DNA of 37,262 nucleotides from a virus. The position numbers and the translations under genes are program-made. The stretch lies in the IMG/VR virus record IMGVR_UViG_3300017917_000781, positions 1 through 37,262 of that record; one strand, given 5' to 3'. Shown piece by piece: positions 10,242 through 37,262 of this stretch; the first letter of the stretch is position 1, and every line of letters begins with the position of its first letter. The notes beneath the pieces were generated by a model. That model did not search any database and had not been told where the DNA came from. It was given only the letters and a program-made list of their open reading frames with translations.

Positions 10242-12125
10242 CTATGCACCAATTAACATCATTTCGCTAAATGCTGCTCCAGCTGCTGGAGTTGACCATG
10301 ATAATGCTCCAGAGCCATCTGTAGACAATGTTTGTCCACTTGTTCCGTCCGATGCTGGCAAAGTCCAAATTCTATTTGTACTTACAGTTGATGGAGCTTT
10401 AAATCCAACATAATGAGTTGAATCTGTATCTGCAAGTCTAAGTTCTGCTGTAGCATTAAGAGTGAGTGCTGTTGTTGCTACTGGACTAGATAAAGTTGGA
10501 GAAGATGCAAATACAAGTGATCCAGAACCAGTTTCATCTGTTATTGCAGAAGCAAGGTTTTCAGATGATGGTGTTCCAAGGAATGTAGCAATACCAGTTC
10601 CAAAAGATGTAATTCCTGTACCGCCATTGGCTACGGCAATAGTAGTACCATTCCATGTACCAGATGTAATTGTTCCAAGAGTAGTTATGCTGTCATCGCC
10701 TGTATATGTACCGCCAGCAACTGCTGCCAGTGTAGAATTATAGGCTTGAATGTCTGTGCCAATATTTGCACTAAAAGTTGTACCAGTTAAGGTTAGTCCT
10801 GTGCCTGCTGAATAAGTACCTGCACCAGAAAATTGAGTAAATTCAATATTATCTGAGCCAACAGTTGTAATTACGTTGGTTTGTACGTAACCTGTTTTGC
10901 CATTAGCAGTTCCAGCCTCTACGAATATAAAGTCTCCAGCATCTACCTCTCCTGCTGTATCATAATCAGTTGCACGGTCTGGAGCACCAGATGCTTTAAC
11001 TACATAAATACCGTTTTCTGTTTTATCTGTTTGGTTTTTAACTAAAACACGATTTCCAGTAGCAAGAGTTACGCCATCAAGAGTATCTCCATTTTCAAGA
11101 GCACTTGCTAATGTAATATTTGCAGTTGTAGCAGCCTGCACCGAAGCATGAACGTTAAGTCCTGCAGTAGCAGCATCAACATATGCTTTTGTAGCAGCAT
11201 CCGAATCTGATGTAGGAGTTGCAAGGCTTGTAATCTTTTGACTGTTCATTGAGAATGAACTAGTTGGAGCAGCAAGGTCAGTTACTTTAGAAGTACGAAC
11301 TTGTGTATCAAAATCTGAAATAGTTGAAGCAGTTTGAGTGCCTGTATGGTTAGCACGAGCAAGTGGATCTGTAGCAAGTTTACTTAGTGCAATGGCTGCT
11401 GAAGCATTAATATCTTCGTTAACGATAGTTCCATTTGTAATATCTGAAGAAGTAATAGAGCCTGAAAGATTAAGTTTGCTATATGCAATTGCAGCAGATG
11501 CATTAATATCATCATTTGTAATAGTTCCATCTGCAATCATTGTTGAAGTAATTGTTCCTGAAGGTGCAGAGAATGTTCCAGTAAATGATGCATTATTTGT
11601 TGGAGCCTTAGCATCTATCTGAGTTTGAATTGCTGAAGTTACGCCATTAAGATATCCGATTTCTGTATCTGAAACATCTGCTACACGAGCTTGAATTGTT
11701 GTTGTATCTACTGCTAAGGTTAATGTGTTTGCAGCATCGTTATAAGTTTTTGTTATACCTGTACCTGCTGTAAGAGCAGCATCAATAGCGTCTTGTGAAA
11801 GTTCTGCAATGTCGGATGTTAAGGCAATAGTACCACTTGAATCTGGAAGAGTAATTGTACGATCAGCGGTTGGGTCTGTTACCTGTAAAGTAGTTTCATA
11901 AGAATCAGCGGTAGCACCTTCAAAAACAATGCTTGTACCAAAAGAAGGATTTACAGTAGAGTTAGCATCAATAAAGTAGTCTAGATCTGCCCAATGATTT
12001 GTGCCATCACCAATTTTAAATTTATTTGTGTCTGATTCCCAACCCATTTCACCAGCATTTAGAATTGGATTTGCTGATGTCCATTGCGCTGCAGTTCCTC
12101 TGCGTTGCTGCATTCTGGTTGCCAT
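10242..12125 (-). CDS. Tail fibre protein with Mtd-like N-terminal domain
   Basis: The 627-residue protein begins MATRMQQRRGTAAQWTSANPILNAGEMGWESDTNKFKIGDG. That is the small N-terminal domain shared by many phage fibres, described from the Bordetella phage major tropism determinant. It is followed by degenerate repeats such as DGTITNDDINASAAIAYSKLN and GTIVNEDINASAAIALSKLA, then VTDLAAPTSSFSMNSQKITSLATPT. A domain at about 345-440 (GDTLDGVTLATGNRVLVKNQ, GDFIFVEAGT) is duplicated in the fibre at 12642. Repeats of this type form trimeric fibre shafts. The ribosome site is AAGGAG, with TATAAT 23 bases before ATG. The receptor-binding role is inferred from the architecture. Confidence 0.85.
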   Translation of the reverse strand: MATRMQQRRGTAAQWTSANPILNAGEMGWESDTNKFKIGDGTNHWADLDYFIDANSTVNPSFGTSIVFEGATADSYETTLQVTDPTADRTITLPDSSGTIALTSDIAELSQDAIDAALTAGTGITKTYNDAANTLTLAVDTTTIQARVADVSDTEIGYLNGVTSAIQTQIDAKAPTNNASFTGTFSAPSGTITSTMIADGTITNDDINASAAIAYSKLNLSGSITSSDITNGTIVNEDINASAAIALSKLATDPLARANHTGTQTASTISDFDTQVRTSKVTDLAAPTSSFSMNSQKITSLATPTSDSDAATKAYVDAATAGLNVHASVQAATTANITLASALENGDTLDGVTLATGNRVLVKNQTDKTENGIYVVKASGAPDRATDYDTAGEVDAGDFIFVEAGTANGKTGYVQTNVITTVGSDNIEFTQFSGAGTYSAGTGLTLTGTTFSANIGTDIQAYNSTLAAVAGGTYTGDDSITTLGTITSGTWNGTTIAVANGGTGITSFGTGIATFLGTPSSENLASAITDETGSGSLVFASSPTLSSPVATTALTLNATAELRLADTDSTHYVGFKAPSTVSTNRIWTLPASDGTSGQTLSTDGSGALSWSTPAAGAAFSEMMLIGA

Positions 12126-25546: not shown

Positions 25547-25570
25547 AAACAAATAGATTGGGTGGAAATT

Positions 25571-27163
25571 ATGATTGTTTTAAATAAAATAGTTATAGTT
25601 GGTGGAGGATCAGCTGGATGGATGTCGGCTGCCTCTATGATTAAAGCATTTCCAGATAAAGAAATTGTAGTTATTGAATCTCCTGACTACCCAATTATTG
25701 GTGTCGGAGAGTCTACTCTTGGCGGTATCACAGGATGGGCCAATTGGATTGGTATTGATGAAAAAGATTTTATGCCAGCAACAGATGCTGTATATAAGAT
25801 GTCTATTAAGTTTACAGATTTTTATAAGAAAGACGCTGGTGGATTCCACTATCCATTCGGTAAAGTATTTTTGGATGGAACAGTAAACGGTCTTAATGAC
25901 TGGTATGTAAAGAAAGCCAAGTTCCCAGAACTAGATGTAGCAGATTATGCTCGTACATTTTTTCCAGCTCTTACTTTAGCAGAACAAAATAAATTATCAT
26001 GGAATGAATCAGGTAAGCTTGGAAACTTTAACTTTAAACAAGATGTAGCCTACCATTTTGATGCTACTAAGTTTGGCCAATGGCTAAAAAATAATTATTG
26101 TATTCCTCGTGGTGTAAAGGTAGTTGCAGATACCGTGACTGATATTGCTACAAATGAAGACGGTATAGAATCAGTAACACTTACAACAGGGGAACAGTTA
26201 ACAGCAGACTTATTTATTGACTGCACAGGTTTTAAGTCAATGCTTCTTGAAGGTACATTGCAAGAACCATGGGATGACTTCTCACACATGCTTCCAAATA
26301 ATAGCGCATGGGCTACACGTATTCCTTATACAGATAAAGAAAAGGAAATGGAGCCTTATACTAACTGTACCGCCATTGAAAATGGCTGGGTATGGAATAT
26401 TCCTTCGTGGGAGCGTATTGGAACAGGGTATGTATTTAGCGATAAATATGTAACACCAGAAGAAGCGTTACAGCAATTTAAGAATCACCTAAGATCAGAT
26501 AAGATGACTATTCATGATCCAAATCGTGACGTAGATTCATACGAATATAAGCATATTAAATTCCGTGTTGGAATTCATAAACGTACATTTGTTAAAAATG
26601 TTGTTGCCATTGGATTTGCTGCTGGCTTTATTGAACCACTAGAATCAAATGGTCTATTTACAGTGCATGAATTTTTGGATAAGCTTATAAAAACTTTGGA
26701 ACGGGGAACAATATCCCAATGGGATAGAGATGCTTACAATATGACAACAAGACGCCAATATCTTGCTTTTAAGGAGTTTGTGGCATTGCATTATGCTCTA
26801 TCAAATAGGACAGATACGCAATATTGGAAAGATATAACAAATAAAACATTTCAGCCAGAAGTTCCAATTTTACAGCCAACATTAGTTACTGGTTTTGCAG
26901 ACCTTGCGGACAGACAGATCAATATTCAACGGCATGATATATTCAGCGGTATACACTGCATTGCAACTGGATTAAATTATTTTCCAGTAAATAAACATAC
27001 AATAAATCGTTGGACACATTTTGATGGAATTAACTATGATGAATATTGTCAAAATACTTGGGATCTTTGGGATGCTTTTCGCAAGACGTGGCAAGAAGAG
27101 GCTGATGAATCTCCGACTATGTACCAATGGCTAAAAGAAAATATACATAATGATAAAACCTAG
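25571..27163 (+). CDS. Flavin-dependent tryptophan halogenase-like protein
   Basis: ATG 25571 is chosen because GGGTGG sits 6 bases upstream; a GTG at 25562 is in frame. The 530-residue protein has the FAD-binding GGGSAGWMSA motif (11-20) and GVGESTLGGI near 48. The ATDAVYKMSIKF segment contains two lysines (K76, K80), one of which should be the catalytic residue equivalent to PrnA K79. The diagnostic WVWNIP halogenase motif lies at 273-278. A late GFAAGFIEPLESNGLF stretch completes the family pattern. These enzymes chlorinate or brominate indole rings with a flavin reductase partner, which is not seen here. Homologues are known from cyanophages with unknown substrate. The membrane-protein gene downstream overlaps by 14 bases. 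Confidence 0.88.
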   Translation: MIVLNKIVIVGGGSAGWMSAASMIKAFPDKEIVVIESPDYPIIGVGESTLGGITGWANWIGIDEKDFMPATDAVYKMSIKFTDFYKKDAGGFHYPFGKVFLDGTVNGLNDWYVKKAKFPELDVADYARTFFPALTLAEQNKLSWNESGKLGNFNFKQDVAYHFDATKFGQWLKNNYCIPRGVKVVADTVTDIATNEDGIESVTLTTGEQLTADLFIDCTGFKSMLLEGTLQEPWDDFSHMLPNNSAWATRIPYTDKEKEMEPYTNCTAIENGWVWNIPSWERIGTGYVFSDKYVTPEEALQQFKNHLRSDKMTIHDPNRDVDSYEYKHIKFRVGIHKRTFVKNVVAIGFAAGFIEPLESNGLFTVHEFLDKLIKTLERGTISQWDRDAYNMTTRRQYLAFKEFVALHYALSNRTDTQYWKDITNKTFQPEVPILQPTLVTGFADLADRQINIQRHDIFSGIHCIATGLNYFPVNKHTINRWTHFDGINYDEYCQNTWDLWDAFRKTWQEEADESPTMYQWLKENIHNDKT

Positions 27164-32578: not shown

Positions 32579-32769
32579 TGATGACACGAAAAGACTATGT
32601 TCAAACCGCTAACATCCTAAAAGGATTTGCTGATGAAATTCATCCGCAAGTCTTTGAAGATTTAGTGGAAGAATTCGCACAATACTTTCAAGCAGACAAT
32701 GAGCGATTTGATAAAGCACGATTTGAAAAAGCGTGTGGCATTGACGAGATTGGACTAATACCTGTATGA
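32578..32769 (+). CDS. Small conserved phage protein (helical, FxADNxRFD type)
   Basis: A 63-residue protein: MMTRKDYVQTANILKGFADE, then LVEEFAQYFQADNERFDKARFEKACG. The FxADNxRFDxxRFxxACG ending is a pattern seen in many small hypothetical phage proteins. It is a helical protein without catalytic motifs. It is coupled to neighbours by TAATG and ATGA overlaps. Confidence 0.7.
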   Translation: MMTRKDYVQTANILKGFADEIHPQVFEDLVEEFAQYFQADNERFDKARFEKACGIDEIGLIPV

Positions 32770-32867
32770 GCAGAATTCTAACAACAATTGTTCAAATTAT
32801 TTTATTAGTTGCCGTAATTCAATTAACAAAATTAACAATTAAAGATATAAAAGAAAACGGATTTTAG
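32766..32867 (+). CDS. 33-residue single-span membrane peptide
   Basis: MSRILTTIVQIILLVAVIQL followed by TKLTIKDIKENGF. One hydrophobic segment fills residues 4-20 and the end is charged. The ATGA overlap with the previous gene supports translation. The function is unknown. The conserved 3' hairpin follows 12 bases after the stop. Confidence 0.55.
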   Translation: MSRILTTIVQIILLVAVIQLTKLTIKDIKENGF

Positions 32868-32876
32868 TTTTCAAAT

Positions 32877-32900
32877 CCTGAGCAAGATCTAAAACTGCTC
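32877..32900 (+). other. Conserved 3' hairpin B
   Basis: CCTGAGCA starts the element; stem GAGCA (32880-32884) and TGCTC (32896-32900), 11-base loop ending in TAAAAC. It is followed by CACAAAAATCCCGAGCC. The same fold with the same loop end recurs at 35294, 36085 and 37011. Confidence 0.65.
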
Positions 32901-32918
32901 CACAAAAATCCCGAGCCG

Positions 32919-32939
32919 TTATCCACAGGTTTATCCACA
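32919..32939 (+). other. Tandem DnaA boxes (possible replication origin)
   Basis: Two perfect copies of TTATCCACA at 32919-32927 and 32931-32939, 12 bp start to start in the same orientation. They lie in a gene-free stretch (32868-33053) together with two CRP-like palindromes and a promoter. Confidence 0.55.
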
Positions 32940-32940
32940 A

Positions 32941-32956
32941 TGTGAATTAAGACACA
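32941..32956. promoter_or_regulatory. Weak CRP-like site
   Basis: TGTGAATTAAGACACA, one mismatch in the right half. Its centre is 74.5 bp upstream of the -10 box at 33023, which is in helical phase with the other promoters, unlike site 7. Confidence 0.4.
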
Positions 32957-32968
32957 CTTTAAGGAGCT

Positions 32969-32984
32969 TGTGAAATGCGTCACA
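32969..32984. promoter_or_regulatory. CRP/GlxR-like site 7
   Basis: TGTGAAATGCGTCACA, a perfect TGTGA-N6-TCACA. Its centre is 46.5 bp upstream of the -10 box at 33023. Confidence 0.6.
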
Positions 32985-32999
32985 AAACGGCGGGGGGAT

Positions 33000-33028
33000 T
33001 TGATTTTGTCAGCCCTATGGTATAGGAT
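33000..33028 (+). promoter_or_regulatory. Early rightward promoter P7
   Basis: TTGATT (33000-33005), 17 bases, TAGGAT (33023-33028). TGTCAG (33007-33012) stands exactly 10 bases before the -10 box. Confidence 0.65.
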
Positions 33029-33053
33029 AAGATTATTAAAGAAAGGAAATAAA

Positions 33054-33266
33054 ATGGATAAATTAGAATACGCATTACGCACAATTCAGAATTGTGATTT
33101 TTGTAATGGCACAGGTGCTCAGTATTGGCAAAATGGTGAGGACTTTGATTTTGAATCTTGTGAGTGTAATCCCTATGACCTAATTCTAGATGAAGATGGC
33201 TCAGTAATTTGGGATAATGGTTTGCTAAGTGAGCCTGAATTATTCGCAACAATGGAGGCTAACTAA
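33054..33266 (+). CDS. Small CxxCxGxG zinc-binding early protein
   Basis: The start is placed at ATG 33054, behind AAAGAAAGG; earlier in-frame codons fall into the promoter. The 70-residue protein has C14-x2-C17-x-G-x-G (NCDFCNGTGAQYW) and C36-x-C38 (ESCECNPYD). This matches the layout of the tiny protein at 30211, including the CEC. The acidic C-terminus is YDLILDEDGSVIWDNGLL. Probable zinc-binding adaptor; no activity is known. Confidence 0.7.
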   Translation: MDKLEYALRTIQNCDFCNGTGAQYWQNGEDFDFESCECNPYDLILDEDGSVIWDNGLLSEPELFATMEAN

Positions 33267-33267
33267 A

Positions 33268-33567
33268 ATGGGTAGCAACTTCGCAACAGAAATGGCAGAC
33301 GGAACTTTGTCTGATTTAGGTATTCACTTAGATATTGAAACGCAGATAGGTATTCACTTGTCTGCTAATCACTACCCGCCCGTGCCTAAGTCAATGGTTC
33401 AACCTTGTATTGAGGCTATAGATGCCGTCAATGACCTAGGACTATGGAACGCAGAAATACCTATGCCTGAAGGCGTGTCGTATAAAGGTTTGACTACTGC
33501 CCCTGCTTGGGCTATTATTGAACAACACCACCTTGAAGCGTGGCTTATTGAAAGAGAGGAAATATAA
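33268..33567 (+). CDS. Early protein of unknown function
   Basis: The start is set at ATG 33268 (MGSNFATEMADGTLSDLG), with GGAGG about 10 bases upstream in the end of the previous gene. An upstream in-frame start inside that gene is unlikely. The 99-residue protein has a repeated GIHLDIETQ / GIHLSANHY element, the segment VQPCIEAIDAVNDLGLW, and an aromatic/acidic end (PAWAIIEQHHLEAWLIEREE). The N-terminus resembles other short actinophage proteins. No family can be assigned. Confidence 0.65.
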   Translation: MGSNFATEMADGTLSDLGIHLDIETQIGIHLSANHYPPVPKSMVQPCIEAIDAVNDLGLWNAEIPMPEGVSYKGLTTAPAWAIIEQHHLEAWLIEREEI

Positions 33568-33762
33568 ATGGACTACAACTATGTTCTAACTACGGAGTAT
33601 GATGATAACGAAATCATGACTAACCGCATTAGTGGATTTGTTGAGGCTAGTAGAGTGTGGGAAAACTGCGTAGATAGCGGAGATGCTAAAGTCTATGCTC
33701 GCTACACAATGTTAGACCCAACAGGTTCTAGTTATACAAAATCGTTCTATGTAAAAAGTTGA
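33568..33762 (+). CDS. Early protein of unknown function
   Basis: A 64-residue protein (MDYNYVLTTEYDDNEIMTNR ... FYVKS) starting directly after the previous stop, with GAGAGGAAAT as ribosome site. Alternating strands (YVLTTEYDDNEIMTNRI, AKVYARYTMLDPTGSSYTKSFYV) around one helix suggest a small alpha/beta fold. No family is recognised. Confidence 0.65.
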   Translation: MDYNYVLTTEYDDNEIMTNRISGFVEASRVWENCVDSGDAKVYARYTMLDPTGSSYTKSFYVKS

Positions 33763-33775
33763 TACAATGCTAGTT

Positions 33776-33982
33776 ATGGACTATCGCATGGTAGATATTC
33801 TTAATGCTGACCAATTAGAACCTGGTGATCTAATTGGATTAGGCATTATTGGAATTGTTAAAATTATTTCAGTCGCTTCAATTAAAGACGGCTTCTTACT
33901 TGTTATTGAAAACGAATTTAGTGAAAGAGAAGATGTTGAAATAAAAGATGATGAAAAATTTGAGCTGTACATTCTAGAATAA
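33776..33982 (+). CDS. Small beta-rich early protein, probably leaderless
   Basis: ATG 33776 is preferred over ATG 33767 because TGA-TACAAT (hexamer 33763-33768) lies 7 bases before it and there is no ribosome site. The 68-residue protein (MDYRMVDILNADQLEPGDLI ...) has an EPGDLIGLGIIGIVKIISV barrel-like stretch, then FLLVIENEFSEREDVEIKDDEKF. The LEPGDLI ... I-x-I pattern is frequent in small actinobacteriophage proteins. Function unknown. Confidence 0.62.
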   Translation: MDYRMVDILNADQLEPGDLIGLGIIGIVKIISVASIKDGFLLVIENEFSEREDVEIKDDEKFELYILE

Positions 33983-33994
33983 AAATCCCGAGCC

Positions 33995-34015
33995 GTCCGT
34001 TTTGTCCGTTTTACG
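33995..34015. repeat. Tandem GTCCGTTTT element
   Basis: GTCCGTTTT occurs twice in tandem here, followed by ACG. Related copies are at 31046-31056, 31675-31684 and 37055-37074. Here and at 37055 the element lies about 5-20 bases before a -35 box. Confidence 0.6.
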
Positions 34016-34019
34016 CAAG

Positions 34020-34048
34020 TTGATATTTTCTCCAATTTATGATAAGAT
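34020..34048 (+). promoter_or_regulatory. Leaderless early promoter P8
   Basis: TTGATA (34020-34025), 17 bases, TAAGAT (34043-34048), then 6 bases to ATG 34055. No ribosome site is present. Confidence 0.65.
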
Positions 34049-34054
34049 TATTTC

Positions 34055-34186
34055 ATGTGGAAAAAGACAGCAGAACAATTACGCAAACTACAGGAATTAC
34101 GTAGATCTAATGCTGCCACGCCATTAAGGAACAAAAAAGTTTACTCACGAAAAGTTAAGCATAAGAAATTGACAAACCCTCAATAA
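34055..34186 (+). CDS. 43-residue basic early protein
   Basis: MWKKTAEQLRKLQELRRSNA, then ATPLRNKKVYSRKVKHKKLT. Very rich in Lys/Arg and without acidic patches, so it may bind nucleic acid. The promoter geometry fixes the start and implies a leaderless mRNA. No family recognised. Confidence 0.6.
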   Translation: MWKKTAEQLRKLQELRRSNAATPLRNKKVYSRKVKHKKLTNPQ

Positions 34187-34197
34187 AATGTTATTAT
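34169..34197 (+). promoter_or_regulatory. Early rightward promoter P9
   Basis: TTGACA (34169-34174), 17 bases, TATTAT (34192-34197), upstream of AGAAAGGA and the gp88-family gene. The -35 box lies within the end of the previous gene. Confidence 0.6.
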
Positions 34198-34215
34198 AAA
34201 TTCAGAAAGGACCCC

Positions 34216-34932
34216 ATGAAACTAAAACGCTCTAATGATAGGAAAGTAGCCAATGCCGTCTCACCAAATGGAAAAACCCCAACAATTGCAAACACCTTCG
34301 GTCTACCCGCTGGAAAGTCTTACTCATGCCCTAATGCAACTTCCGTATGTTCTAAAGTGTGTTATGCGGGAAAGCTTGAAAAAGTCTACAAAGGAGTAAG
34401 AGACACTCTTCTCCATAATTGGGAATTACTACGCAATGCAGATGAAGATACAATGGTATCTCTTCTCTCTGAAATGATTAATGAGTTTAAGTCTGATTGT
34501 GATAAGCGCAATGCTAAAAAACTATTTCGCATTCACTGGGATGGGGATTTCTTCTCTGATACCTATACCAATGCCTGGAAAATAGTTATCACTAATAATA
34601 CAGATATTCAATTCTGGGTCTATACTCGTGTACCCTCCGCCGCTGCGAAACTGCAGGGAATAGATAACTTATCTCTTTATTTTAGTACAGATAGCGATAA
34701 CAAAGATGAGGCAGTCAAACTATCTAATCAAGGAATAAGATTAGCATACTTAGCAGATACCTTCGCAATTGGGCAAACAGATCTAAAAGAGATGATTGGC
34801 AAGGTAGGCGCAAAGTGTCCTGAGAATAAAAAAGCCATACCGCTAATTGACAAAGAGGGCTCTGCTTGTGTAAAATGTAGTCTATGTGTCTATAACAAAG
34901 CAGACATAGTATTTTCCGCTAAGAAAAAATAA
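34216..34932 (+). CDS. Gp88-family cysteine-rich protein
   Basis: A 238-residue protein with AGAAAGGACCCC before the ATG. It matches the pattern of the actinobacteriophage gene-product-88 family. The N-terminal SCPNATSVCSKVCYAG carries C38, C45 and C49. A central IHWDGDFFSDTYTNAW stretch and FWVYTRV follow. The C-terminal cysteines are C201, C218, C221 and C224 (CVKCSLCVYNKADI). Two cysteine groups could hold a metal or iron-sulfur centre, and the GDFFS-type core recalls radical-SAM-like layouts, but the function of the family is not established. It is the largest gene of this early block. Confidence 0.8.
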   Translation: MKLKRSNDRKVANAVSPNGKTPTIANTFGLPAGKSYSCPNATSVCSKVCYAGKLEKVYKGVRDTLLHNWELLRNADEDTMVSLLSEMINEFKSDCDKRNAKKLFRIHWDGDFFSDTYTNAWKIVITNNTDIQFWVYTRVPSAAAKLQGIDNLSLYFSTDSDNKDEAVKLSNQGIRLAYLADTFAIGQTDLKEMIGKVGAKCPENKKAIPLIDKEGSACVKCSLCVYNKADIVFSAKKK

Positions 34933-34941
34933 AGGAGAACT

Positions 34942-35016
34942 ATGGAAATCCTATTTATCCTATTTGTCCTATTTGCCCTATTATTTGCTGGCATGGGACA
35001 CGGCAACAGAAAATAA
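34942..35016 (+). CDS. 24-residue membrane peptide
   Basis: MEILFILFVLFALLFAGMGH followed by GNRK: one membrane span with a basic end. It has AAAGGAG 5 bases before the ATG, a strong site that supports translation. It lies 9 bases after the gp88-family gene. Function unknown. Confidence 0.6.
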   Translation: MEILFILFVLFALLFAGMGHGNRK

Positions 35017-35047
35017 TCTCAAATAGTGAGATGATGTTATTTTGGAC

Positions 35048-35076
35048 TTGACATTTCCAAAAATAAATGAAATAAT
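35048..35076 (+). promoter_or_regulatory. Early rightward promoter P10
   Basis: TTGACA (35048-35053), 17 bases, AATAAT (35071-35076); the region from AAATGAAATAATAAAT is shared with P6. Confidence 0.55.
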
Positions 35077-35109
35077 AAATACAACAAGCCAAACAAAGGA
35101 GAAATAAAA

Positions 35110-35274
35110 ATGGCAGTAGCAAACGCAAACTATAAGGTAGGAGATACCTACACCACTCAGAAGTCTAAGGAAACAGGCGTTATCAAGGAAATCGTGCCAC
35201 AGGCAAATGGTAATGTTCGTGTAAAGTTAGACCTAAATGGTAAAACTCGCTGGACTACTTGGACAGCAAAGTAA
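35110..35274 (+). CDS. Small SH3/KOW-like early protein (paralogue b)
   Basis: A 54-residue protein (MAVANANYKVGDTYTTQKSK ... TWTAK) behind AAAGGAG. The order YKVGDTYTT, ETGVIKEIV, NVRVKLDLNGKTRWTTW matches the proteins at 32014 and 35894, pointing to the same small barrel. Likely binds nucleic acid or another protein, as inference only. The tandem 3' hairpin element follows directly. Confidence 0.65.
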   Translation: MAVANANYKVGDTYTTQKSKETGVIKEIVPQANGNVRVKLDLNGKTRWTTWTAK

Positions 35275-35320
35275 TTCCTAATACAGGAAAAGACCTGAGC
35301 ATGTCTGCTAAAACTGCTCA
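35275..35320 (+). other. Conserved 3' hairpin C (tandem form)
   Basis: The first stem is TTCCT/AGGAA (35275-35289). The second is TGAGCA (35296-35301) with TGCTCA (35315-35320) and a 13-base loop ending in TAAAAC. The same two-stem arrangement follows the paralogue at 35894. Confidence 0.65.
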
Positions 35321-35321
35321 C

Positions 35322-35350
35322 TTGATTTTCTAAACTAGAAATGCTAGTAT
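35322..35350 (+). promoter_or_regulatory. Early rightward promoter P11
   Basis: TTGATT (35322-35327), 17 bases, TAGTAT (35345-35350), then CAGAAAGGA before ATG 35388. A TAGGAT overlaps the end of the -10 region. Confidence 0.5.
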
Positions 35351-35387
35351 AGGATAAACCCCAAACACCAACAGAAAGGAAAAACAG

Positions 35388-35813
35388 ATGGCTAGAAATG
35401 GCAAATCTATTAGCGTGAAAATCGCTACAACTAAGGTTATCAAAGCCTTAGAAACAAAGTTAGAGAAACTCAAATCTGACTTCGCAAAGCAAGACGAGAA
35501 CGAAGCAAAGTTCCGTAAGGCACAGGAAAAGTGGCAGAAGGAAGTAGGAAAGTGGGCTATTGGACAAATCTCCAAAGCACAAAACTTACGCACCAACTAT
35601 CGCTCTTGGAACAAAACTCTCAATGTTGATTTTGACCTAACTTGTGAGGAAGCAGATTTCCCTAAAGAACCTACACAGGACTACGAACAAATCCACCGCC
35701 ATACTTACAATGAGATGGTAGAGGAAATTGAGAACGCTATCCGTATTCTCAAGATGACCGATGAGGAAGTAGTTTCTACTTCTACATACAACGCTATCGC
35801 AAGATACTTGTAA
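35388..35813 (+). CDS. Coiled-coil early protein
   Basis: A 141-residue protein with CAGAAAGGA upstream. Residues 15-60 are a long charged helix with heptad spacing (TTKVIKALETKLEKLKSDFAK, NEAKFRKAQEKWQKEVGKW). After a short beta segment (TLNVDFDLTCEEADFP) a second helix follows (HTYNEMVEEIENAIRILKM). Similar proteins occur in actinobacteriophage early regions without known function. Codon use is slightly richer in C than its neighbours. Confidence 0.7.
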   Translation: MARNGKSISVKIATTKVIKALETKLEKLKSDFAKQDENEAKFRKAQEKWQKEVGKWAIGQISKAQNLRTNYRSWNKTLNVDFDLTCEEADFPKEPTQDYEQIHRHTYNEMVEEIENAIRILKMTDEEVVSTSTYNAIARYL

Positions 35814-35832
35814 TTAGATGGGGGAAGGGTAT

Positions 35833-35861
35833 TTGACTTCCCCCCTCAAAAATGTTAGACT
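35833..35861 (+). promoter_or_regulatory. Early rightward promoter P12
   Basis: TTGACT (35833-35838), 17 bases, TAGACT (35856-35861), followed by CAGAAAGGA before ATG 35894. Confidence 0.6.
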
Positions 35862-35893
35862 TGTATAACACCAAACAGAAAGGATAAACACAA

Positions 35894-36064
35894 ATGACAC
35901 TTGGCGGATACACTTACCAACTTGGCGACTTGTTCACCACAAGCACAACAGGTATCACAGGTAGAATTAACTCATTCTCACCTATCACCCAAAAAGTTAC
36001 TCGTGTAGGTCTTACCCTTAGCAACGGACAAAAGCGTTTTGCTATGGTAAAAACTAGCAAGTAA
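35894..36064 (+). CDS. Small SH3/KOW-like early protein (paralogue c)
   Basis: A 56-residue protein (MTLGGYTYQLGDLFTTSTTG ... KTSK). YQLGDLFTTSTTGITGRINSF and VTRVGLTLSNGQKRFAMV align by eye with the protein at 35110. Both genes are also followed by the same two-stem 3' element, so gene and 3'-UTR were probably duplicated together. Function unknown. Confidence 0.65.
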   Translation: MTLGGYTYQLGDLFTTSTTGITGRINSFSPITQKVTRVGLTLSNGQKRFAMVKTSK

Positions 36065-36065
36065 A

Positions 36066-36108
36066 TTTCCTGCTAAGGGAAACACCTGAGCAAGTGTTAA
36101 AACTGCTC
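36066..36108 (+). other. Conserved 3' hairpin D (tandem form)
   Basis: The first stem is TTTCC/GGAAA (36066-36082). The second is GAGCA (36088-36092) with TGCTC (36104-36108) and an 11-base loop ending in TAAAAC. Confidence 0.65.
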
Positions 36109-36118
36109 TCCAATTATT

Positions 36119-36159
36119 GTGGCGGGTTTTGAATGTGTAATCATAGCTATTCCCGCCAC
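36119..36159. repeat. 8-bp GC-rich inverted repeat
   Basis: GTGGCGGG (36119-36126) and CCCGCCAC (36152-36159) with a 25-base AT-rich loop. No T run follows. It lies between hairpin D and site 8 in the gene-free stretch 36065-36286, and may be an operator. Confidence 0.55.
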
Positions 36160-36183
36160 GATCTAAAAATGCCCCCGAGATTT

Positions 36184-36199
36184 TGTGATCTAACTCACA
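36184..36199. promoter_or_regulatory. CRP/GlxR-like site 8
   Basis: TGTGATCTAACTCACA, a perfect match with central TA. Its centre is 63.5 bp upstream of the -10 box at 36255. Confidence 0.65.
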
Positions 36200-36231
36200 T
36201 CTCATTATATGAGACTAATTAAGAGGATGAG

Positions 36232-36260
36232 TTGATTTTGTCAGATAGGTTTGGTAGACT
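36232..36260 (+). promoter_or_regulatory. Early rightward promoter P13
   Basis: TTGATT (36232-36237), 17 bases, TAGACT (36255-36260), with TGTCAG (36239-36244) exactly 10 bases before the -10 box. Confidence 0.65.
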
Positions 36261-36286
36261 TAATAAATAACAGAAAGGAACCCCCA

Positions 36287-36559
36287 ATGATAGCAACCGC
36301 TATTGCTTTACAAAACGCAACACAAGAAGCAGTTCATGACGAAATGGTTATGGCTATGGCTTCTGACTTATACCATAACAGAGATACAGATTCAGATACA
36401 TTTGCTAAGATGTTATTTCAATATTCTGCTATGTTGTCCTCAATGACTACTACTCTAGTCACAAATGCCCTGTTGACAGAATCACAATTACATGATTTAC
36501 TTGATACTATTAAAGAAATGGAATCTATGGGAAAGGATATAGATAATGGAAACAACTAA
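36287..36559 (+). CDS. Helical early protein
   Basis: The start is set at ATG 36287, behind CAGAAAGGA; an upstream in-frame start falls in the promoter. The 90-residue protein (MIATAIALQNATQEAVHDEM ... DNGNN) is almost wholly helical and Met-rich (MVMAMASDL, MLFQYSAMLSSMTTTLVTNALL). It ends in an acidic tail. It overlaps the next gene by 14 bases. No family recognised. Confidence 0.65.
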   Translation: MIATAIALQNATQEAVHDEMVMAMASDLYHNRDTDSDTFAKMLFQYSAMLSSMTTTLVTNALLTESQLHDLLDTIKEMESMGKDIDNGNN

Positions 36560-36992
36560 TGAAATCGTAGTGCCTGAACACTACAACGCTAACCAATTGG
36601 TTACCTATAAAGTAATAGAGGGAGATTCAGTTACATTTCCTACTATCAAAGTTAACGAACTAGAATATACACTAGACCGTGCACGAAGTAAAGAAAAACA
36701 ACTTTCAGAACTTAGACTCCAGGTATCAAACTTAGAAGATAAACTTGCAGGCTGGGTTGAGAATGAAGAGGACGCTACCACAATCGTCTCTGAAATTTGC
36801 GATATCTTTGGATTCAATCCAACAAGAGAAATTGAATTTGAGGCCACTGTCCGTATCACTGGAACAGTTGACGTGCCACTTGCAAGCATTGCAGATTTTG
36901 ATATTCAAGACGTTGACTTGAGTATTGATGTTTCTTCTTGGTCACATAATATTGAAACAGATTCAGAAATTGAATATCTAAACACAGTGTGA
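36546..36992 (+). CDS. Early protein with coiled coil and beta domain
   Basis: A 148-residue protein starting at ATG 36546 within the end of the previous gene. Residues 40-70 form a coiled coil (YTLDRARSKEKQLSELRLQV, SNLEDKLAGWV). The second half is a beta-rich domain (REIEFEATVRITGTVDVPLASI, DVDLSIDVSSWS) resembling short proteins from actinobacteriophages. No catalytic residues are visible. The conserved hairpin E follows 19 bases after the stop. Confidence 0.7.
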   Translation: METTNEIVVPEHYNANQLVTYKVIEGDSVTFPTIKVNELEYTLDRARSKEKQLSELRLQVSNLEDKLAGWVENEEDATTIVSEICDIFGFNPTREIEFEATVRITGTVDVPLASIADFDIQDVDLSIDVSSWSHNIETDSEIEYLNTV

Positions 36993-37010
36993 TAGGGGGC
37001 TATCCAAGAT

Positions 37011-37036
37011 CCTGGGCCATGATTTAAAACTGGCCC
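37011..37036 (+). other. Conserved 3' hairpin E
   Basis: Stem GGGCCA (37014-37019) and TGGCCC (37031-37036) with an 11-base loop ending in TAAAAC. Compared with hairpins B-D the stem bases differ on both sides while pairing is kept. CACAAAAATCTCGGGG follows. Confidence 0.65.
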
Positions 37037-37091
37037 CACAAAAATCTCGGGGCGCCCGTTTTGTCCGTTTTAAGATGATTGTTAAGATAGC

Positions 37092-37120
37092 TTGACTTTG
37101 TCAGTCTTGTCTGCTAAGAT
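37092..37120 (+). promoter_or_regulatory. Early rightward promoter P14
   Basis: TTGACT (37092-37097), 17 bases, TAAGAT (37115-37120), with TGTCAG (37099-37104) exactly 10 bases before the -10 box. CCCGTTTTGTCCGTTTTA lies about 20 bases further upstream. Confidence 0.65.
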
Positions 37121-37150
37121 TGTTAAAACAAATAGAAAGGAAATAAATAA

Positions 37151-37262
37151 ATGGCGCATGAATTAGAAACACAAAATGGTGTTGCTTCTTTCGCTTCTTT
37201 CCGTGAGCCTGCTTGGCATGGTCTAGGCACAGTATTCACAGAAGAAAAAAATACAGCAGAAA
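37151..37262 (+). CDS. DUF932/phage-plasmid-like protein, N-terminal fragment
   Basis: ATG 37151 with TAGAAAGGA upstream; the frame runs off the right edge after 37 residues. MAHELETQNGVASFASFREP followed by AWHGLGTVF is the typical beginning of the DUF932 / phage-plasmid-like protein family, with its AWHGLG motif. Members are common in actinobacteriophages and plasmids and have no settled function. The full length is not visible. Confidence 0.75.
   Translation, partial: MAHELETQNGVASFASFREPAWHGLGTVFTEEKNTAE

Follow-up and report, generated by a model that had tools for sequence, protein, structure and literature searches.

What is the short element that recurs behind four stop codons of a single phage genome, and what could it do there? 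The stretch of DNA concerned (the window) is one whole IMG/VR record, IMGVR_UViG_3300017917_000781, of 37,262 bp, and it belongs to a tailed phage carrying portal, head protease, class II RNR, tryptophan halogenase and GP88 genes. An earlier note, made from the letters alone, had described a covarying family of hairpins in the 3′ untranslated region (UTR), with a constant loop end TAAAAC, after the stops near 32867, 35274, 36064 and 36992. All four copies are where they were said to be, three with GAGCA/TGCTC and the fourth with GGGCCA/TGGCCC, and TAAAAC is present in them. No copy ends in a U-tract, and a terminator scan found no + strand site in 32800-37262. The view that this is a conserved, covarying 3′-UTR RNA element is strongly supported by the 163 distinct sequences and the compensated stem scans described below. 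However, the element is not a hairpin but an H-type pseudoknot, and it is not confined to this phage.

An H-type pseudoknot supported by covariation

The loop bases that had been taken as variable are complementary to bases outside the hairpin. The bases 5′ of CCT pair with the loop bases that precede TAAAAC, and the element is therefore a pseudoknot; a simple hairpin is ruled out by this pairing with the 5′ flank. Its parts (S, stem; L, loop) follow the order S1a-L1-S2a-L2-S1b-L3-S2b of the classical H-type, with an S1 of 3 bp and an S2 of 5-6 bp within 27-32 nt, and the consensus reads N3-CCU-RRRCA-NG-N3-(0-4)nnAAAC-UGYYY, often followed by A. In the window S1 is fully paired in three copies (AGA/TCT, ACA/TGT and GAT/ATT) and paired at two of three positions in the other (AAT/ATC).

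The search pattern CCTGAGCA-N3..10-TAAAACTGCTC, which leaves the S1 bases unconstrained, matches at least 120 IMG/VR stretches. Among the matches listed, a gap of 5 prevails (131/154), and the three bases 5′ of CCT set against the last three gap bases give pairs such as ACA/TGT, CAA/TTG, AGT/ACT and CGC/GCG. When 87 distinct sequences were compared, Watson-Crick pairs were found at position -1 in 100% (50% expected), at -2 in 99% (37% expected) and at -3 in 72% (33% expected), while no other combination of positions stood out in pairing. With 163 distinct 28-mers, chosen regardless of S1, the same three positions were paired in 160/163, 157/163 and 106/163 cases, all four Watson-Crick types occurring at each S1 position and U-G or G-U at -3. 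In an alignment of 112 sequences unselected for S1 (A1), both partners are changed in 186 cells, compared with 61 after shuffling; 96.3% of its cells are paired, against 29-46% for slid structures. A second alignment (A2), in which S2 varies at four of the five pairs, was selected for pairing and is illustrative only.

The second stem was scanned in the whole of IMG/VR (2.9 million contigs), where the compensated CCTGGGCA..TAAAACTGCCC occurs in 90 stretches and the mispaired CCTGAGCA..TAAAACTGCCC in none. Further compensated S2 forms are AAGCA, GGACA, GAGTA, GAACA, AGGCA, GGCCA, GGGCCA and GACCA. When TAAAAC was shuffled, no permuted anchor was found with CCT and S1, apart from two one-base shifts of the same motif; with these controls near zero, the matches in at least 120 stretches are not due to chance. 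Replacing CCT in L1 gave scattered matches, plus TCC and a few genuine CCC. The TCC matches represent this same motif read from one base further 5′, where an additional U-A pair closes S2 (the base at +1 is A in most copies). The CCU of L1 and the AAAC of L3 are nearly fixed, and S1 is free to vary. As we read the sequences, L1 would form triples with S2 in its deep groove, and the A-rich L3 would make A-minor contacts in the shallow groove of S1, the arrangement of other compact triple-stranded pseudoknots. We consider the existence and structure of the pseudoknot virtually certain.

A covariance model of 63 rows, mostly from other viruses and with window copy 3 as one row, recovers exactly the four window copies (24-39 bits), the next best window site scoring 7.8 bits. 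A covariance model, a search of phage and metagenome data and a comparison with Rfam had been proposed as checks in the earlier note. Neither of the two outcomes that the note had named as refuting its reading was obtained: compensatory changes recur in many more copies, and the relatives lack a U-tract. Rfam 15 gave no gathering-level match in the window, and at E up to 10 copies 2 and 3 returned one unrelated chance microRNA match only. No description of the pseudoknot was found in the open literature, although one in a subscription journal could be missed, and a literature text search for its sequence strings gave, among the matches listed, primer-type matches only. At one locus (L029:7404-7573) three pseudoknots stand in tandem within 170 bases past one gene.

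Placement relative to genes

With open reading frames (ORFs) of at least 50 codons, called mechanically, the knot starts 5-9 nt past a same-strand stop in 88 of 261 non-redundant copies (redundancy being reduced by flanks alone) and 0-4 nt past it in a single one, whereas the antisense-strand control gave 5 and 2 copies, respectively. The spacing has its mode at 5-6 nt and a sharp lower edge. When a stop codon is in the A site, the entry of mRNA into the 30S subunit lies about 5-7 nt further on. The mode thus falls near the nearest spot at which the knot can be folded, and the knot lies about as close past the stop as would allow it to stay folded during termination.

Among copies with longer spacers (13-28 nt), 26 of 51 have a second covarying hairpin right past the stop, against 2.9 expected, and window copies 2 and 4 are among them. 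Two window copies had been credited with an extra upstream hairpin; both hairpins exist, but three copies have one, the GATAG/CTATC of copy 4 having been overlooked. The hairpin before copy 2 has compensatory forms at similar sites (TTCCC/GGGAA, TTAGC/GCTAA and TTACC/GGTAA).

At a gene cut-off of 80 amino acids (aa), the knot shares its strand with the upstream neighbour in 177 of 181 cases, and it lies between convergent genes in 21 cases and between divergent ones in 4 (p 0.0009), compared with 159 and 173 for all gaps of the same loci. Genes upstream are diverse: DUF932 accounts for 23 of 90, and the others include Hsp20, a Gp2.5-like single-stranded DNA-binding protein (SSB), capsid, tail, HNH and peroxidase genes. 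Downstream, many copies precede tRNAs, promoters, the next ribosome-binding site or convergent genes, and in 38 copies a tRNA starts 3-14 nt further on. Start codons with a Shine-Dalgarno sequence are rarely closer than 18-20 nt, and the next start codon is often 20-40 nt away. Several copies in the cyanophage S-EIV1 occupy gaps of 50-60 nt from stop to next start, and one S-EIV1 copy happens to be about 20 nt ahead of the SSB gene of that phage. Over the first 9 nt downstream the sequence is poor in G and holds no U-run; position +1 is A in 66%, and U, modestly enriched at +4 to +9, does not exceed 50% at any of these positions.

Two candidates were rejected. A stop-codon readthrough element is ruled out, there being no long open frame behind the knot (an in-frame stop follows after a median of 7 codons, with a 90th percentile of 24). 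A tie to tRNA-Asp or to any single gene fails as well, since the 34 contexts with tRNA-Asp seem to represent a single actinophage lineage and the knot follows genes of diverse kinds.

Spread across viruses and bacterial genomes

Short-query BLAST searches and annotation located the pseudoknot in phages of Synechococcus, Nostoc, Mycobacterium (Labelle), Arthrobacter (Molivia), Paracoccus and Lentibacter, and also in phages of Lactobacillus, Anoxybacillus and Vibrio, a crAss-like phage, gut phages, a Microviridae genome and an inovirus. In Labelle the knot stands 6 nt past gene 85. Among the families given in the records are Autographiviridae, Schitoviridae, Zobellviridae, Kyanoviridae and Crassvirales. 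S1 is, in almost every phage found by BLAST, unlike that of the query yet compensated, which is independent of the search route. Lj965 and DSS3phi2 are weak members, and S-EIV1 has seven copies by the covariance model. The element occurs in double- and single-stranded DNA phages alike; it spans two viral realms, Duplodnaviria and Monodnaviria, and is not one phage's own family.

On bacterial genome contigs, 48 stretches comprise Lactobacillus prophage-like loci, contigs of metagenome-assembled genomes (MAGs) from many phyla, arrays of clustered regularly interspaced short palindromic repeats (CRISPR) and chance matches in which S1 fails. Pattern matches in Pontibacter, Thermoplasmata and one further locus (L012), where S1 or the spacing fails, were taken as chance, as were model matches in T4 (18.8 and 17.5 bits) and Syn9 (17.5 bits), which have long loops and no AAAC end. 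A weak match (E 4) inside the annotated transfer-messenger RNA of the crAss-like phage cr7_1 (NC_055895, 20756-20782; our H99) is probably chance too. Escherichia coli genomes had no match to one exact 30-nt query, a query too strict to exclude divergent copies.

Capture by a type III-A CRISPR system

The Ignavibacteria genome CP054675 has five model matches, which lie in five different spacers and in one orientation within a single array of 141 repeats (140 spacers). One of the five was the search match, and the other four were not needed to find the locus; elsewhere in the 2.4-Mb genome there is no model match. Random sampling at window density would, by our own estimate, give about 0.2 knot spacers per 140, against the five seen, which suggests that the knot is present in the transcribed RNA of phages infecting this host. 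The array adjoins genes for Cas1, Csm1/Cas10, Csm2, Csm4, RAMPs and Card1, i.e. a type III-A system. With the repeat end ATTGAGAC and the cas gene strand as guides, the CRISPR RNAs would be antisense to the knot and fit for RNA targeting. Spacers derived from RNA by RT-Cas1 were rejected as an explanation, the genome having no RVT_1 and the cas locus being of type III-A. One more knot spacer was seen in Poribacteria (L169/L334), and one in Melioribacter (L128) lies beside a single repeat-like sequence.

A proposed role at mRNA 3′ ends and its alternatives

Since the spacing is locked to the upstream stop, the knot belongs with the upstream gene, and the diversity of upstream genes rules out gene-specific autoregulation. 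A 5-kb microvirus, as well as an inovirus, carries it, hence no dedicated phage protein is required. Cyanobacteria lack Rho (PMC13289151), and the occurrence of the knot in their phages means that Rho is not required either, while copies that precede tRNAs or lie within operons speak against termination. This leaves 3′-5′ exonucleolytic decay as what all hosts share. We therefore propose that the knot is an mRNA 3′-end barrier against 3′-5′ exonucleases, a reading that we consider about equally likely to be right or wrong. It favours the mRNA-stabilising end among the interpretations offered in the earlier note.

Under this proposal, a small triple-stranded knot would resist unwinding despite its few base pairs, and it would stay folded past the terminating ribosome and clear of the next gene's initiation footprint. 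Transcription would continue past it, as the tRNAs and cistrons found downstream lead us to expect. Tails left by Rho, by RNase P or RNase E cleavage or by read-through would be trimmed back to the knot, which would halt 3′-to-5′ exonucleases (PNPase, RNase R/II) so that the coding region survives; at a downstream tRNA, the RNase P cut would itself make the knot the 3′ end. The knot would thus act like a repetitive extragenic palindromic (REP) element or a post-Rho hairpin, in the form of a pseudoknot and without a phage-encoded partner.

In E. coli, Rho-ended transcripts carry a hairpin that has no U-tract, and the sequence behind it is G-poor and C-rich; this is interpreted as trimming that halts at a stabilising structure. 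REP elements, believed to stop 3′-5′ exonucleases, likewise stabilise 3′ ends and do so without terminating (PMC13289151). By analogy, a REP-like block to exonucleases that stabilises the upstream mRNA is a candidate role for the knot, which shares with these hairpins an intergenic position past the stops of many unrelated genes, the lack of a U-tract and a G-poor downstream sequence (PMC13289151). In contrast to them, it is a pseudoknot of about 28 nt with fixed loops rather than a GC-rich hairpin, its consensus is not palindromic as that of REP is, and it is borne by phages of many bacterial phyla, including those of Rho-less cyanobacteria. The T4/T2 gene 32 pseudoknot is likewise a compact H-type structure of phage mRNA with two short stacked stems, but it binds gp32 and serves a single gene as a 5′ operator, 67 nt upstream (PMC3014915), whereas the knot lies 3′ of many kinds of gene and not 5′ of a regulated SSB gene. 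The T4 genome itself has only weak model matches that lack the AAAC loop. Recoding pseudoknots (for readthrough or frameshift) such as those of murine leukaemia virus (MuLV) and beet western yellows virus (BWYV) lie 5-9 nt from the decoding site and have an A-rich loop in the shallow groove and a C-containing loop in the deep groove. The knot resembles them in spacing and in both loops, but no open frame follows its stop, and tRNAs or promoters come next.

Several observations weigh against the barrier. On its own S2 folds at -3.4 to -10.1 kcal/mol, energies that leave the pseudoknot out, so that the strength of the barrier must rest on the pseudoknot. The contrast between convergent and divergent sites fades with stricter gene calls (16 vs 9 at 100 aa, 8 vs 12 at 120 aa), because many phage genes are shorter and are dropped. 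Finally, Aminicenantes and Desulfobacterota MAGs and also Desulforadius carry conserved short ORFs (e.g. MKRFTVPRIAHCAEGCRHSS*) whose stop overlaps the knot or lies shortly before it; their peptides fit no Pfam or NCBIfam family. A ribosome terminating there would hold the knot open, and it may therefore have another role at these loci; in several of them an intrinsic terminator then follows, which simple 3′ protection leaves unexplained.

The conservation of CCU and AAAC, far beyond what a generic barrier would need while S1 is free, could instead mark contacts with some universal factor of the host (RNA polymerase, ribosome, RNase or RNA chaperone), recruited or blocked by the phage, and the broad host range fits such a partner. 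We hold this unlikely, although it is the first alternative to consider: compact triple-stranded pseudoknots need fixed loop bases too, the placement relative to ribosome footprints fits a barrier equally well, and the partner is hypothetical. The same placement, between the footprints of termination (mode 5-6 nt past the stop) and initiation (at least 18-20 nt before the start), and the short S-EIV1 gaps would suit a translational insulator that keeps a terminating or scanning ribosome out of the next cistron and so decouples neighbours. Copies before tRNAs, promoters and convergent genes have no next cistron on the message, and we think this reading improbable.

That the pseudoknot might replace the hairpin and U-tract of a transcription terminator is rather improbable as well. 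Like intrinsic terminators it closes a transcription unit with a stem, promoter-like sequences come soon after window copies 2 and 4, and there is the modest excess of U at +4 to +9; however, it has neither a U-tract nor a stable GC-rich nested hairpin, S2 is weak, the base after it is usually A, and copies lie inside S-EIV1 operons and just upstream of tRNAs that need transcription. That the knot stabilises or regulates the downstream gene from its 5′ side, for example through a block to RNase J, would agree with the frequent distance of 20-40 nt to the next start codon but is very improbable, given a spacing fixed to the upstream stop, convergent copies without a downstream gene and the rarity of divergent 5′-UTR sites.

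The four copies, the phage and its host

The coordinates of the features are given in Table 1. The promoter-like sequence TTGATT-17-TAGTAT lies just past copy 2 and TTGACT-17-TAAGAT about 55 nt past copy 4. Stretches resembling CCCGAGCCGTCCGTTTTGTCCGTTTTA recur at 33986-34013 and 37050-37071 (with similar bases near 32910), between a gene end and the next promoter-like site, and may be an operator. The last bases of the window (37152-37262) hold the start of an ORF that looks DUF932-like by eye, DUF932 being the gene most commonly found upstream of the pseudoknot elsewhere. One contig of an Actinomycetota MAG (L167) has its genes arranged similarly to those of the window, and the host is therefore probably a freshwater actinobacterium. 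The phage also encodes a tryptophan halogenase (25562-27163; Pfam E 3e-105, PHROG 2928) and a protein with Mtd_N, the N-terminal domain of the major tropism determinant (10242-12125).

Table 1. Pseudoknot copies and associated features in the window and at other loci.
Feature	Location	Strand	Details
Pseudoknot copy 1	32874-32900	+	6 nt past stop TAG 32865-32867; model 38.1 bits; S1a AAT 32874-32876, L1 CCT 32877-32879, S2a GAGCA 32880-32884, L2 AG, S1b ATC 32887-32889 (2/3 pairs), L3 TAAAAC 32890-32895, S2b TGCTC 32896-32900
Pseudoknot copy 2	35291-35319	+	16 nt past stop TAA 35272-35274; model 29.7 bits; S1a AGA, CCT, S2a GAGCA, TG, S1b TCT, GC insert, TAAAAC, S2b TGCTC
Pseudoknot copy 3	36082-36108	+	17 nt past stop TAA 36062-36064; model 39.1 bits; S1a ACA, CCT, S2a GAGCA, AG, S1b TGT, TAAAAC, S2b TGCTC
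Pseudoknot copy 4	37008-37036	+	15 nt past stop TGA 36990-36992; model 24.3 bits; S1a GAT, CCT, S2a GGGCCA (6 pairs), TG, S1b ATT, TAAAAC, S2b TGGCCC
33-codon ORF	32766-32867	+	stop precedes copy 1; from sequence
54-codon ORF	35110-35274	+	stop precedes copy 2; from sequence
56-codon ORF	35894-36064	+	stop precedes copy 3; from sequence
148-codon ORF	36546-36992	+	stop precedes copy 4
Hairpin TTCCT/AGGAA	35275-35289	+	directly past stop, upstream of copy 2; compensatory forms at similar sites
Hairpin TTTCCT/AGGGAA	36066-36081	+	past stop, upstream of copy 3; one G-U pair
Hairpin GATAG/CTATC	36991-37004	+	takes in part of stop codon, upstream of copy 4
Knot-bearing spacers, L332 (CP054675 1024000-1038800)	6754, 9776, 10898, 11037, 13923		same orientation
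Short-ORF loci	L125, L132, L146, L148-L152, L155, L163, L165, L168, L171		16-25-aa ORFs, MKRFTVPRIAHCAEGCRHSS-like and MRWMFPHATHCSACGS-like

Implications

In phages of hosts that lack strong intrinsic terminators, many messages end with no U-tract, which raises the question of how these ends are kept stable. One 28-nt module, present in tailed phages, microviruses and an inovirus, would go part of the way to an answer. In its widest form, which we advance tentatively and hold to be somewhat doubtful, the proposal is that of a universal phage device: a triple-stranded pseudoknot, shared by two realms and many host phyla and placed by ribosome footprints, that would give exonuclease-resistant 3′ ends and parallel, in prokaryotes, the exonuclease-resistant RNAs known from eukaryotic viruses, being also a target of type III CRISPR and part of a short-ORF cassette in some chromosomes. 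The CRISPR capture suggests that hosts use the knot as a broad phage signature. The knot is small enough for direct structural and enzymatic study, and its spacing offers an in vivo gauge of mRNA entry into the ribosome. It would add to Rfam a family missing there, improve the annotation of gene ends in viral metagenomes and provide a portable mRNA stabiliser.

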